Part shown: piece by piece, positions 1,672-5,070 of the stretch
Numbering within the stretch: the first letter of the stretch is position 1
Layout: each line of letters begins with the position of its first letter
Source: Morganella morganii
GTDB lineage: Bacteria > Pseudomonadota > Gammaproteobacteria > Enterobacterales > Enterobacteriaceae
NCBI RefSeq assembly: GCF_019243775.1
Contig: NZ_CP069157.1
Span: 2,170,001-2,234,000, forward strand
Reading direction: 5' to 3'
Length of the DNA: 64,000 nucleotides
The notes under the pieces: generated by a model
Databases searched by the model: none
Seen by the model: only the letters and a program-made list of their open reading frames with translations
Told to the model about the DNA's origin: nothing
Made by a program: the position numbers and the translations under genes

Positions 1672-1881
1672 CTACATATACCTCTGCGGATACAAAATCT
1701 GCATTTCAGTGATTTTTTGTTCGTAAAATTTCACCAATTTTTCAGCAATCTCAAGTGATGCCGCCTGAGCGCCGCGCTCCAAACGACTGAGGTTCCCGAC
1801 ATCGTAGTTAATTGCGGCTGCTACCTCTGCAATTGTTAATTGCTTCTCCAAACGAATTTTCCTTAACGGCGTTATTTGCAT
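1672..1881 (-). CDS. cro: Cro-like repressor
   Basis: A 69-aa protein that is essentially one HTH_XRE domain: L-T-I-A-E-V-A-A-A-I-N-Y-D-V-G-N-L-S-R-L-E-R-G. The recognition helix closely matches that of the divergent repressor (D-V-G-N-I-S-R-L-E-R), so both should bind the same operators. ATG 1881 has GGAG just upstream. It is the first gene from PR. Cro proteins shut down the immunity promoters and favour lytic growth. Confidence 0.85.
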   Translation of the reverse strand: MQITPLRKIRLEKQLTIAEVAAAINYDVGNLSRLERGAQAASLEIAEKLVKFYEQKITEMQILYPQRYM

Positions 1882-1980: not shown

Positions 1981-2628
1981 ATGAAAATAGGAACAAAAAT
2001 TAGAGCTCTCAGAAAACAGAAGGGATTAACAATCCTGCAATTAGCCACTGCTATTGATAGCGACGTGGGGAATATCTCTCGCCTTGAAAGGAATATCCAA
2101 GGCTACTCCGAGAGCACATTAACAAAAATTGCGGCTGCTCTTGGTGTCACGGTAGCCGACCTATTCTCCGATACCACTACACAGCAACAAGATGATAATG
2201 TTGAGTTTGTTGGATTCGTCCCCAATGGCATGGTTAAAGTAGTTGGGGAAGCATTCCTGGGGATTGATGGCGCAGTGGATATGATAGAGGCCCTTGAGGG
2301 ATGGGTTCAAATTTACAGCGATGATAAGGACGCTTATGCCCTCAAAGTTAAGGGTGACAGTATGTGGCCCAGGATTCAATCAGGTGAGTATGTGGTTGTT
2401 GAGCCCAACACAGTAGTCAGATCCGGTGATGAGGTCTTTGTGCGCACTGTTGAAGGTAAGAACATGGTAAAAATACTGAATAAAACCAGAGATGGTAGTT
2501 ACCAATTCACCAGCGTCAACAATACTCACCCGCCAATCACAGTTGATCCACGTGAAGTGGAAAAAATGCACTATGTGGCAGCGATTGTAAAGCCGACTAA
2601 GTTTATCGATAAATGCGAGCAATCATAA
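1981..2628 (+). CDS. cI: CI-like prophage repressor (HTH plus S24 peptidase domain)
   Basis: From ATG 1981 the protein is 215 aa. Residues 3-60 form an XRE HTH (L-T-I-L-Q-L-A-T-A-I, recognition helix D-V-G-N-I-S-R-L-E-R). Residues 110-205 form a LexA/CI S24 domain with K-G-D-S-M (Ser127) and Lys164 in N-M-V-K-I as catalytic dyad. It should hold the prophage silent and self-cleave with RecA. I could not place the scissile Ala-Gly or Cys-Gly bond, so SOS inducibility is not certain. The in-frame TTG at 1969 is a less likely start. The 13-bp operators lie immediately upstream. Confidence 0.9.
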   Translation: MKIGTKIRALRKQKGLTILQLATAIDSDVGNISRLERNIQGYSESTLTKIAAALGVTVADLFSDTTTQQQDDNVEFVGFVPNGMVKVVGEAFLGIDGAVDMIEALEGWVQIYSDDKDAYALKVKGDSMWPRIQSGEYVVVEPNTVVRSGDEVFVRTVEGKNMVKILNKTRDGSYQFTSVNNTHPPITVDPREVEKMHYVAAIVKPTKFIDKCEQS

Positions 2629-2666: not shown

Positions 2667-3008
2667 ATGGCATTCAATGACACTGAAGTCGTACAAATTA
2701 AACAATGTATGAACTATTTCATGGAAAAGCGTCGTCCACCAAAGCATATCCGGGATGAACATGATCTTCAGTATCGTATTGAAGACGATAGCGTAATCAT
2801 TTTCGAGGTTAGACAACTGTCCTGGAGCACCGGACGTGCGGAAGAAATGCTGGCCAAAATAACAAACAACAGAAACAGCAACTCGTGGTCCCTGTTCTGG
2901 TCTACTGATAATAATGAATGGCGGCACTATGACGGCCGAATGATAGGCAGTTTTTCTGACGCAATAAAAATTATTGATGAAGATGCAGATCATCGATTCT
3001 TCGGCTAA
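2667..3008 (+). CDS. DUF3024-family protein
   Basis: A 113-aa protein with features I recognise from DUF3024: R-P-P-K-H-I-R-D-E, Y-R-I-E-D-D-S-V-I-I-F-E-V-R, W-S-L-F-W near the middle, W-R-H-Y, and an ending D-E-D-A-D-H-R-F-F-G. Function is unknown. It lies 39 bp after cI in the same direction, so it is likely transcribed in the lysogen from the repressor promoter, in the position of lambda rexAB. That placement suggests a lysogen-expressed accessory or exclusion gene, but the sequence does not show this directly. Confidence 0.7.
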   Translation: MAFNDTEVVQIKQCMNYFMEKRRPPKHIRDEHDLQYRIEDDSVIIFEVRQLSWSTGRAEEMLAKITNNRNSNSWSLFWSTDNNEWRHYDGRMIGSFSDAIKIIDEDADHRFFG

Positions 3009-3142: not shown

Positions 3143-3850
3143 ATGAGCAAAATTCACAAGATAAAACTTAAGCTTGGCGGGACAAAGCCAGATGAGTTAC
3201 CACAAGCAAAGCTTGTTCAATATCTTGCTGCACTTACAAAAATGTGCGGTGAAAGTGATGTTCATTTTTCATCCGTAGAAGAAGGCTCGGCTGAGTTAAT
3301 TTCATACACGAAATGCCAGAGTACTTATGGTTCGGTAATAGCAAACATAAACGCAAGTATTGCCAGTGAATCGAAAGATTATCGGGATATAGCTAAATAC
3401 CTTGCCAGAGACAATTATACGGCACAAATACTATCTGAAGATAATATAGTTATCGGCAGCATAACTCCTCACATAGAACCAAAACCAATTGCCATTACGA
3501 AAAAAACAAAAGTGCAAGGTCAGTTATATAACATAGGGGGTCGAGATGAGACTATTCCAGTCAAGTTACTCGGTGCCAATAATGAAATTTTAAATTGTGA
3601 AGCAAATCAACAAACCGCTACTCAGCTGGCAAAATATCTGTTCAAAAAAATCAGAGTTCATGGTGTTGGAGACTGGGAAAACATCAACGGCATATGGAAA
3701 CTAAAAAAACTTAAAATTGAAAAATTTGAATTACTTAAAGATATTTCAATAAAACAAGCACTATCCATTTTAAAAGAAGATGAAAATAACAAGTGGGATG
3801 AAATGGAAGACCGCGAAGACATTCTACACAAGGTTAGGAGCATCAATTGA
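3143..3850 (+). CDS. Uncharacterised 235-aa partner of the PIN protein
   Basis: I do not recognise the family. It is a soluble 235-aa protein, Lys/Ile/Asn-rich and AT-rich compared with the phage genes around it. The first about 90 residues look alpha/beta. Residues about 120-190 look beta-rich, with the stretches V-Q-G-Q-L-Y-N-I-G-G-R-D and R-V-H-G-V-G-D-W, and the C-terminus is highly charged. Its stop overlaps the TTG start of the PIN-domain gene, so the two are translationally coupled. The order (unknown gene first, PIN nuclease second) resembles an antitoxin-toxin pair, but this protein is far larger than a typical VapB and shows no obvious DNA-binding fold. Confidence 0.75.
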   Translation: MSKIHKIKLKLGGTKPDELPQAKLVQYLAALTKMCGESDVHFSSVEEGSAELISYTKCQSTYGSVIANINASIASESKDYRDIAKYLARDNYTAQILSEDNIVIGSITPHIEPKPIAITKKTKVQGQLYNIGGRDETIPVKLLGANNEILNCEANQQTATQLAKYLFKKIRVHGVGDWENINGIWKLKKLKIEKFELLKDISIKQALSILKEDENNKWDEMEDREDILHKVRSIN

Positions 3851-4401
3851 AAGTTATCATTGATACCAACATCTTAATTTGTATGATGCTAGATGTAGAA
3901 CCTCAGGGATCGTGGATAAACCCTCGAGATAACACAAAGGTTGATAATGTACACTTAAGGGCTAAAGCCCTGAAAGATTACATTGAACAAATTGGCGGTG
4001 TAATTATTGTACCTACGCCAGTTTTAGCTGAATACCTTGTTGGCATCGATAAAGAGAAGCATATTGATCATGTTAACCTCATATCATCAATGTCATGCTT
4101 TGAGTTGGTTTCATTTGATGAAATTGCAGCTATAGAATGTGCTAAATTACCGACACTTCAAGAAATTAGGCAATTGGCAAGTTCCGCAGAAAGCACCTCT
4201 AGTAAAATAAAATTTGACAGGCAAATCATATCAATTGCTAAAGCGAATAACGTTAATGAAGTATGGAGCCATGATAAAAATGTTTTTAAGAAGTGCACTG
4301 ATTTAGGGATTTCAATAAAATCTTTAGCCGATATAGCCCCACCCCCAGAGCAATTTCCGCTTTATCCAGATGATGAAACAGGCACTCACATAACACATTG
4401 A
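3847..4401 (+). CDS. PIN-domain ribonuclease-like protein
   Basis: A 184-aa protein with the four acidic positions of PIN/VapC nucleases: Asp6 in I-I-D-T-N-I-L, Glu62 in V-L-A-E-Y-L, Asp124 in K-F-D-R-Q-I and Asp143 in W-S-H-D-K-N. All four are present, so an active metal-dependent RNase is likely. It starts at TTG 3847, overlapping the stop of the upstream gene by three bases; the weak start codon suggests output is held low by coupling. It ends just before an intrinsic terminator. It sits in the cI-PL immunity interval, a common place for phage exclusion genes. Confidence 0.85.
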   Translation: MKVIIDTNILICMMLDVEPQGSWINPRDNTKVDNVHLRAKALKDYIEQIGGVIIVPTPVLAEYLVGIDKEKHIDHVNLISSMSCFELVSFDEIAAIECAKLPTLQEIRQLASSAESTSSKIKFDRQIISIAKANNVNEVWSHDKNVFKKCTDLGISIKSLADIAPPPEQFPLYPDDETGTHITH

Positions 4402-4405
4402 CCCC

Positions 4406-4430
4406 AGCCCTCCCCTGCGAGGGCTTTTTT
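4406..4430 (+). terminator. Terminator after the PIN gene
   Basis: AGCCCTC / GAGGGCT stem (4406-4412 with 4419-4425), six-base loop, then T6. It closes the cI to PIN transcription unit and insulates it from PL. Confidence 0.9.
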
Positions 4431-4554
4431 GTGCCTGTAACTCCCCGCCTATGTGATCCACACCAGATTTTGACGATTTAAAAAAAATAAATTATCAGTA
4501 AAATCAACAAAATAACTACATTAAATCTTACATAATATTACCCACCCCAAAATA

Positions 4555-4582
4555 TGCGCTTGACGCATTTGCGTTAAATGCA
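4555..4582. promoter_or_regulatory. OL: two 13-bp operators at PL
   Basis: TGCGCTTGACGCA (4555-4567) has perfect half sites and TGCGTTAAATGCA (4570-4582) has one mismatch. They are 2 bp apart and match the motif found three times between cro and cI. They overlap the PL -35 and spacer, so binding would block PL. Confidence 0.85.
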
Positions 4583-4588
4583 TATTAT
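4560..4588 (+). promoter_or_regulatory. PL promoter
   Basis: TTGACG (4560-4565), 17-bp spacer, TATTAT (4583-4588): a strong sigma-70 match lying within the two operators and reading into nutL and N. Confidence 0.85.
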
Positions 4589-4618
4589 CATAACCATCAA
4601 CGGAACACAGCACGTTGG

Positions 4619-4685
4619 TGCTCTTTAAAAACGATGATAGCGAGCTGTGTATTGGCTGTCAGAACGGTGACGCTGATAAAGCGTC
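4619..4685 (+). promoter_or_regulatory. nutL site (boxA and boxB)
   Basis: BoxA TGCTCTTTAAAA (4619-4630) closely matches the rrn boxA. BoxB at 4669-4685 is a 6-bp stem GACGCT/AGCGTC around a GATAA loop, the same loop as in nutR. It lies in the N leader, as in lambda and P22. Confidence 0.85.
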
Positions 4686-4704
4686 AACCTTCTCAGAAGG
4701 TTTT
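4686..4704 (+). terminator. Hairpin with short T run just after nutL
   Basis: AACCTT, five bases, AAGGTT and then T's directly follow boxB. It could be a weak leader terminator or part of N autoregulation; the T run is short, so this is tentative. Confidence 0.35.
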
Positions 4705-4761
4705 GGGATTGAAGCAAAGCATGATTGTACCAATCACCAAAGCCAACTGTTTGGAGGAAAT

Positions 4762-5070
4762 ATGGCAATAATCATAGTGAAAAAATCACGCAAACCTGAA
4801 TTTTTACGTGGTAACTCAGCAAACAGACGTCACGCCAGACGAAAGGCTGAAGCTATTGCCACCAAAAATGTAAAAATGAAGTTGGAGGAAATATTCAGAA
4901 CTGAACCGGACAAAAGCCCAATGAGCCGGGTAGAAAAAGCCACATCAGCATGCAGTACCCCGATTTACGACTCACCAGACAACTGCTGCTTAAACACAAC
5001 TGCCCTGTATTCAACTAAGCGATATAAGTCAAAACCAAAAACAGAATTTGGTATCACGGCCAGAGCATAA
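4762..5070 (+). CDS. N: N-like transcription antitermination protein
   Basis: A 102-aa basic protein from ATG 4762 (GGAGGAA just upstream). The arginine-rich motif N-S-A-N-R-R-H-A-R-R-K-A-E-A-I near the N-terminus matches the boxB-binding helix of P22 N (N-A-K-T-R-R-H-E-R-R-R-K), and the C-terminus (A-L-Y-S-T-K..., ending I-T-A-R-A) also resembles P22 N. It should bind the GATAA boxB hairpins of nutL and nutR, join NusA/B/E/G and let RNA polymerase read through early terminators. A longer frame to 4615 would translate through boxA and boxB and is not a credible start. Confidence 0.85.
   Translation: MAIIIVKKSRKPEFLRGNSANRRHARRKAEAIATKNVKMKLEEIFRTEPDKSPMSRVEKATSACSTPIYDSPDNCCLNTTALYSTKRYKSKPKTEFGITARA

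Follow-up and report, generated by a model that had tools for sequence, protein, structure and literature searches.

In the immunity region of a prophage of Morganella morganii, two overlapping genes, here called A and B, form one two-gene unit that is close to obligate and joins a protein of an undescribed family to a PIN-family predicted ribonuclease. They lie in the 64,000-nucleotide stretch of DNA analysed here (contig NZ_CP069157.1, positions 2,170,001 to 2,234,000 of the forward strand), which as a whole we call the window. The system resembles the VapBC toxin-antitoxin modules with an unusual antitoxin and sits like the rexAB genes of phage lambda, but is no RexAB. An earlier note, made from this DNA alone, had proposed the pair as an undescribed anti-phage or toxin-antitoxin system; of this, the real two-gene unit and the unknown family of A stand and the neighbourhoods fit in part, while the roles in defence and as toxin and antitoxin are what we infer. 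Both open reading frames described there, overlapping by a stop and a TTG start, are present:

3143-3850, plus strand: gene A, with an ATG start, encoding 235 amino acids (aa) with a predicted N-terminal domain, OB fold and C-terminal tail
3847-4401, plus strand: gene B, with a TTG start, encoding 184 aa, a PIN-family predicted ribonuclease, VapC-like
3847-3850, plus strand: overlap of the A stop and the B start, TTGA, 4 nucleotides (nt) shared

What argues for a single unit is the co-occurrence of the two genes when searched for from either side. Starting from B, with A not required, we assembled 8 viral loci found with one query, the best 80 of 92 genome loci and 41 viral loci found with an alignment; with loci from other searches this made 128, or 105 that are non-redundant at 95% B identity, the window's pair being one. 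A lies directly upstream of B, in the same order, in 98 of these 105 PIN loci. The other seven consist of five that reach the end of the available sequence and two that are decayed: in L057 a transposase frame separates what is left of A, its first 25 positions, from the later part of B, and L056 has no A and a B that lacks its start. Starting from A, the search returned 51 viral loci at 49 distinct places, 29 of them on contigs already found from the B side and several near-identical; B comes next at 47 of the 49, and at 18 of the 20 places not already known from the B side. The two exceptions are a record that ends at the A stop codon (L212) and a locus in which B is short (L208). The counts from both sides thus speak for the pairing and against homologues that occur independently. 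In addition, the pairwise identities of A and of B are correlated (r 0.90 over 94 loci, with 0 of 1000 permutations as high).

The junction between the genes is equally regular. In the window, the two genes share the 4 nt TTGA, in which TTG opens B and TGA closes A, and AGGAG lies six bases 5' of the TTG; from this overlap, the translation of B is probably coupled to that of A. Among the relatives, B starts with ATG in 52 cases, TTG in 32 and GTG in 7, and the distance from A to B falls between -20 and +25 nt in 90 of the 91 loci with a settable start, 69 junctions being overlapping; 7 loci that were not measurable are left out of this count.

Where decay is seen, it touches the two genes unequally. 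B is split into two frames beside a whole A in four loci (L091, L093, L126, L133), which together with L208 makes five places of broken B, while no broken A beside a whole B was noticed in the loci examined, though the A of L077 is short. Broken B beside whole A, and not the reverse, is as expected if B is toxic. In L025, which duplicates the pair on the plasmid of L023, both genes are broken. At L208 (3742-4372), B ends after 38 residues and an HNH-endonuclease-like frame comes next, with A intact; at L133 (5941-6494), on the Kingella potus plasmid p1Npotu, B is spread over two overlapping frames and the A frame is whole.

B is a PIN protein by family and by its catalytic residues. It scores 27.9 bits against Pfam PIN (PF01850; curated cut-off 23.6), the family covers most of its length, and a PIN fold is predicted for a relative of B. 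All four acidic residues that had been read from the sequence are invariant where readable, with Asp6 in 95 of 95, Glu62 in 96 of 96, Asp124 in 98 of 98 and Asp143 in 98 of 98 aligned rows; the alignment holds 98 B rows, in which the window's own sequence is counted twice, and its missing cells come from three loci with B in two frames. Against the NCBIfam VapC model NF047959, B reaches 14.5 bits and so stays below the cut-off of 80. A profile of B gave no match at 0.1 among the sequences of solved structures.

For A, by contrast with B, no recognised family emerged, just as the earlier note had it. Pfam yields no family at E 10 and neither NCBIfam nor PADLOC a model at E 1, and the PHROGs matched, 19868 (E 2.7e-60) and, weakly, 14814 (E 0.11), are both of unknown function; a profile of A found no match better than E 0.23 among the sequences of solved structures. 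The predicted architecture comprises an N-terminal domain (about residues 1-110), an OB fold like that of the single-stranded DNA-binding protein (SSB) and PriB (about 118-201) and a tail with Trp218 and Arg232. Fold comparisons cover the OB part of A and the PIN part of B, and the predicted OB fold shows five strands, with a helix between strands 3 and 4. Searches of 38 A proteins against Pfam gave no SSB match, and AbrB, RHH and Phd-type DNA-binding domains are not among the 19 weak families listed for them. The tail is well conserved: Trp218 is found in 88 of 95 and Arg232 in 96 of 99 A rows, 14 residues apart. The earlier objection that A is too large for an antitoxin therefore stands as to size, 235 aa, but not as to the last 20 or so residues, which hold an antitoxin-like Trp...Arg tail. 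A Luteibacter variant of A (L077, 5504-5986, 160 aa) retains the OB part and the tail but has no N-terminal domain.

DUF6575 was considered as a family for A and dropped. The lead consisted of a loose BFVD fold match only (E 4.8e-9, TMq 0.43, root-mean-square deviation 8.0); no DUF6575 profile match was found among the 38 A proteins at E 10, and 185 genomes gave one sub-threshold match, a coiled-coil-like frame scoring as neither A nor B. Closer study of this structural match may be worthwhile, because DUF6575 is named among the domains of validated Escherichia coli defence systems (PMC9519451).

Does A contact B? In some bacteria A and B adjoin in frame, L045 being one case, and a read-through model of its pair, 432 residues across the natural stop, has a predicted local distance difference test score of 92.2 and a predicted template modelling score (pTM) of 0.84. 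It was built on an 85-row alignment, with no row misplaced, of L045, 10 further pairs of this kind and rows of A or B alone, and its junction at 242-248 is loose. A pTM of 0.84 for 432 residues suggests that the position of the A half with respect to the B half is modelled with confidence. In the Shigella VapBC complex, Trp47, Trp50, Phe51 and Phe60 of VapB pack into VapC and Arg64 of VapB enters the VapC active site, with Trp50 and Arg64 14 residues apart (PMC3384007). The Trp...Arg tail of A may accordingly be regarded as the best lead to a mechanism, not as proof of one.

How widely is the pair spread, and what surrounds it? By record titles it occurs in Enterobacterales, Pseudomonas, other Gamma-, Alpha- and Betaproteobacteria and Acidobacteria, and plasmids of Cupriavidus and Methylobacterium carry it. 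The A profile matches 3 of 369 genomes of the class, one of these being the genome of the window, and in 29 of 30 carriers B is present as a single copy; such a rare and patchy distribution is what one would expect of a mobile or immune gene. In E. coli, where one version of the pair was searched, at least 32 of 5,426 complete genomes carry it, all at 99% identity or more, annotated as 'hypothetical protein' and 'PIN domain-containing protein'. A DNA search of the pair against phages gave no match, and protein searches with three A queries each returned the same 2 of 50,697 phage records. One phage, Pacha_bin_1 (L002), has a whole A frame open at 3968-4741, where the submitted annotation gives a short opposite-strand frame (3920-4390) and a C-terminal piece (4472-4741). 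Pantoea latae NZ_MWUE01000022.1 holds two different A-B pairs about 12 kb apart (L017, L019), whose DNA seems to recur in IMG/VR as L099 and L104.

Unrelated prophages carry the pair beside lysogeny regulators, as in the following cases: Pseudomonas phage Ostro, with the order cI-A-B; the immI region of E. coli P22-like prophages, in which the pair follows an Arc-family, mnt-like gene and lies between the tailspike/antirepressor side and the DNA-transfer genes; and the Kingella potus plasmid, which has phage genes and a LexA-type repressor about 2 kb upstream of the pair. Among loci with enough upstream sequence, 14 of 24 viral ones (four of these 14, L001, L003, L008 and L009, supplied seeds for the repressor search) have a repressor-like gene of the same orientation in the 3 kb before the pair, against 2 of 68 genome loci. 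The repressor family phrog_4 is matched by 13 of 92 neighbour proteins.

At the genome loci, in turn, the two genes on each side include, among the matches listed (the first 25 families per set), a type III methyltransferase (5.7e-165), both genes of AbiE, AbiTii, PD-Lambda-2, AbiO, Nhi, a type II methyltransferase, a type II restriction enzyme and HEC-01A/B. Two sets of such neighbours matched 51 families over 138 proteins and 151 over 125, control regions from 20 of the same genomes 11 over 125; this is a crude comparison, as the tallies count families, not proteins, and several models may match one protein. The 138 proteins come from the first 150 listed, from which 12 at L050, L052, L056 and L057, loci that are short or lack A, were left out, and the controls are 125 of 157 proteins, with genes called by longest open frame. 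The median control gene is longer than the median neighbour gene (308 against 227 aa), a bias that runs against the claim of defence neighbours. The controls matched mad2, mad3, mad8, HTH_VI, capH, AriA, two 'control protein' models, C3a186 and PDC-S07, and no methyltransferase, restriction-enzyme or Abi model was found among their 125 proteins. Because the generic mad2, mad3, HTH_VI, capH and AriA occur in case and control alike, only the specific defence models count. The expected clustering with defence or prophage genes is thus borne out in part, the neighbourhoods being in part those of defence or superinfection exclusion.

What might such a unit do? The explanation we put forward, which we hold about as probable as its negation, is a VapBC-like toxin-antitoxin system with an unusually large, phage-sensing antitoxin that gives lysogens exclusion. 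B would be a toxic ribonuclease, and A its antitoxin and likely the phage sensor. The C-terminal tail of A, laid over the PIN domain, would keep B inactive, and Arg232 may reach into the four-acid site of B as VapB Arg64 does in VapC. The N-terminal domain and OB fold, which VapB does not have, would bind a product of infection, be it single-stranded DNA, RNA or phage SSB, and this product would loosen the tail, in what is the least certain step. Freed B would, going by the PIN/VapC family, cut tRNA or another RNA, so that growth stops and the superinfecting phage aborts. A bolder generalisation, which we offer only tentatively and rather doubt, is that the pair represents a widespread, previously undescribed class of SSB-like OB-fold antitoxins that read phage single-stranded nucleic acid or SSB directly, signal to a PIN ribonuclease via a VapB-like tail and were acquired repeatedly by unrelated prophages as a superinfection-exclusion gene. 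If the proposal is true, the bacterial groups listed above hold a new two-gene immune unit, and phage sensing by a toxin-antitoxin system could be tested on a sensor that is a separate, recognisable fold and is partly missing in the Luteibacter variant. It would also put a name to a gene pair that occupies the lambdoid rexAB slot as well as the P22-like sieA region.

Several caveats apply to the evidence for this proposal. The broken B frames could possibly stem from sequencing errors; the read-through model is weak evidence, as its chains are joined and it comes with no inter-domain error; the Trp-Arg spacing of A equals that of VapB Trp50-Arg64, which is one of several possible aromatic-Arg pairs; and housekeeping genes and IS1595 transposases make up most of the listed Pfam neighbours, with no defence neighbour at some loci. 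There is also a different use for the SSB-like OB fold predicted in A, a fold common in nucleic-acid binders: it could bring B to phage nucleic acid, A and B being two needed subunits of a phage-targeting nuclease and B alone inert. In DS-5, a PIN protein with a partner, loss of the partner is described as abolishing defence without unrestrained toxicity (PMC13092281), and the defence-gene neighbours at genome loci would suit such a nuclease. We nevertheless think it unlikely, although worth keeping in view, since the Trp...Arg tail, the order of A before B and the broken B with whole A fit a restrained toxin better, and a search of 38 A proteins at E 10 gave no match to DUF5830, the domain of the DS-5 partner.

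Does the pair need to act on phages at all? As a selfish addiction module it would merely keep prophages and plasmids, with no anti-phage action, and its presence in viral contigs and on the Cupriavidus and Methylobacterium plasmids as well as its toxin-antitoxin-like layout are consistent with this. But 66 of the 68 genome loci that have enough upstream sequence are without a nearby repressor, some adjoin restriction-modification or Abi genes, and in prophages the pair occupies rexAB or sieA slots, so that we regard addiction alone as improbable. Its place in the window, between the right operator (OR) with cI and the left operator (OL) with the promoter PL, might further point to a regulator that acts by RNA decay on the immunity region of its own prophage, for instance in the processing of the cI or PL transcript; as the pair is also found in P22-like immI and in genomes with no phage repressor nearby, this is very improbable.

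Comparison with known systems bears on the phage-sensing toxin-antitoxin proposal as well. VapB-type antitoxins are small and have a known DNA-binding domain such as AbrB, RHH or Phd. With VapBC systems such as Shigella VapBC and FitAB, the pair shares a putative PIN toxin with four acids, a gene order with the putative antitoxin first, overlapping genes and a tail of that protein with an aromatic residue and an Arg 14 apart; it differs in that A, at 235 aa, is predicted to carry an N-terminal domain and an OB fold in place of the small DNA-binding domain of VapB, and in that B is far below the NCBIfam VapC cut-off. Because it has neither a VapC by that cut-off nor a small DNA-binding antitoxin, we do not file it as VapBC. 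RexAB likewise consists of two co-oriented genes after cI and before PL; lambda RexB, however, is described as a membrane effector (PMC12894663), whereas B is of the PIN family, and no Rex family was matched. The P22 SieA protein is reported to block DNA injection (PMC10883804), and the PHROG matches of A and B show no connection with it. The likeness to SSB and PriB lies in the predicted fold of A residues 118-201; in A, with no Pfam SSB match in 38 proteins, the OB part is joined to other parts.

DS-5, identified by DefensePredictor, is also made of two proteins, one a PIN ribonuclease, and its partner is given as carrying DUF5830 and an AcrIF4-like domain (PMC13092281); the pair was rejected as DS-5 on the DUF5830 search of the 38 A proteins. 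E. coli PD-T4-10 has the same overlapping two-gene layout, and its A is reported to neutralise a toxic B in abortive defence against T-even phages (PMC9519451); it differs in that its proteins carry no predicted function in that paper, whereas our B is a recognisable PIN protein. Neither A nor B matched PADLOC at E 1, the library not having been checked for a PD-T4-10 model. As described, DS-5 indicates that a PIN protein and a partner can defend without being a toxin-antitoxin system (PMC13092281), and PD-T4-10 that two overlapping genes of unknown function can serve as toxin-antitoxin and as defence at once (PMC9519451). Narrow searches of the open-licence literature for a PIN protein paired with an OB fold, or for PIN/VapC pairs serving in prophage exclusion, brought up no paper other than a review on protein-protein interactions.

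The pair is embedded in the window among the following features:

1672-1881, minus strand: Cro-like small regulator, by position, with weak repressor-family matches
1897-1944, no strand: operator-like repeats in the cro/cI gap, presumably the OR side
1981-2628, plus strand: cI-like repressor (HTH_3 and Peptidase_S24)
2667-3008, plus strand: DUF3024 gene between cI and A, PADLOC candidate defence family PDC-S43 (E 1.6e-30)
4406-4425, plus strand: intrinsic-terminator-like hairpin followed by a T run, 3' of B
4552-4592, no strand: operator-like repeats, presumably the OL/PL side, overlapping a -35/-10-like site at 4560-4588
4762-5070, plus strand: N-like antiterminator

Taken together, the cI-like gene, the terminator-like hairpin, the operator-like repeats and the N-like gene place A and B in the lambda rexAB slot, between cI and PL on the cI strand, as the earlier note had seen, with the repressor upstream on the same strand and the OL/PL-side repeats and N-like gene downstream. 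From this position we infer that the pair is expressed in the lysogen, and the DUF3024 gene could be a further lysogen-expressed gene. The strong terminator claimed at the end of the pair is matched by the hairpin and T run, while terminator-like sites as a class are not above chance in the window (4 against 2.9 expected from shuffled sequence); nor are promoter-like sites above shuffled sequence (11 against 10.6). The operator-like repeats, common to the cro/cI gap and the stretch before N, flank the block. The motif ATATGCGCNNNACGC was derived from the sites at 1930 and 4552, so its exact match at both is by construction; with two mismatches allowed, the 64 kb hold 12 matches, no more than chance would give (shuffles average 7.1, and 9 of 100 reach 12), but 6 of the 12 cluster at 1869-1944 and 4552-4585. 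Genes like CII and O lie on the minus strand with the Cro-like gene, and Erf-like, SSB, excisionase and integrase (8715) genes lie beyond the N-like gene. The minus-strand frames 281-721 and 687-1085 overlap and match successive parts of the O-like phrog_678, so the O-like gene may be split here. Adjoining N, the minus-strand gene at 5098-5631 matches PHROG 1301 (inhibits SieB, E 2.2e-33) and, weakly, PHROG 6399 (SieB, E 1.4e-4), and is a second exclusion-related gene of this prophage.
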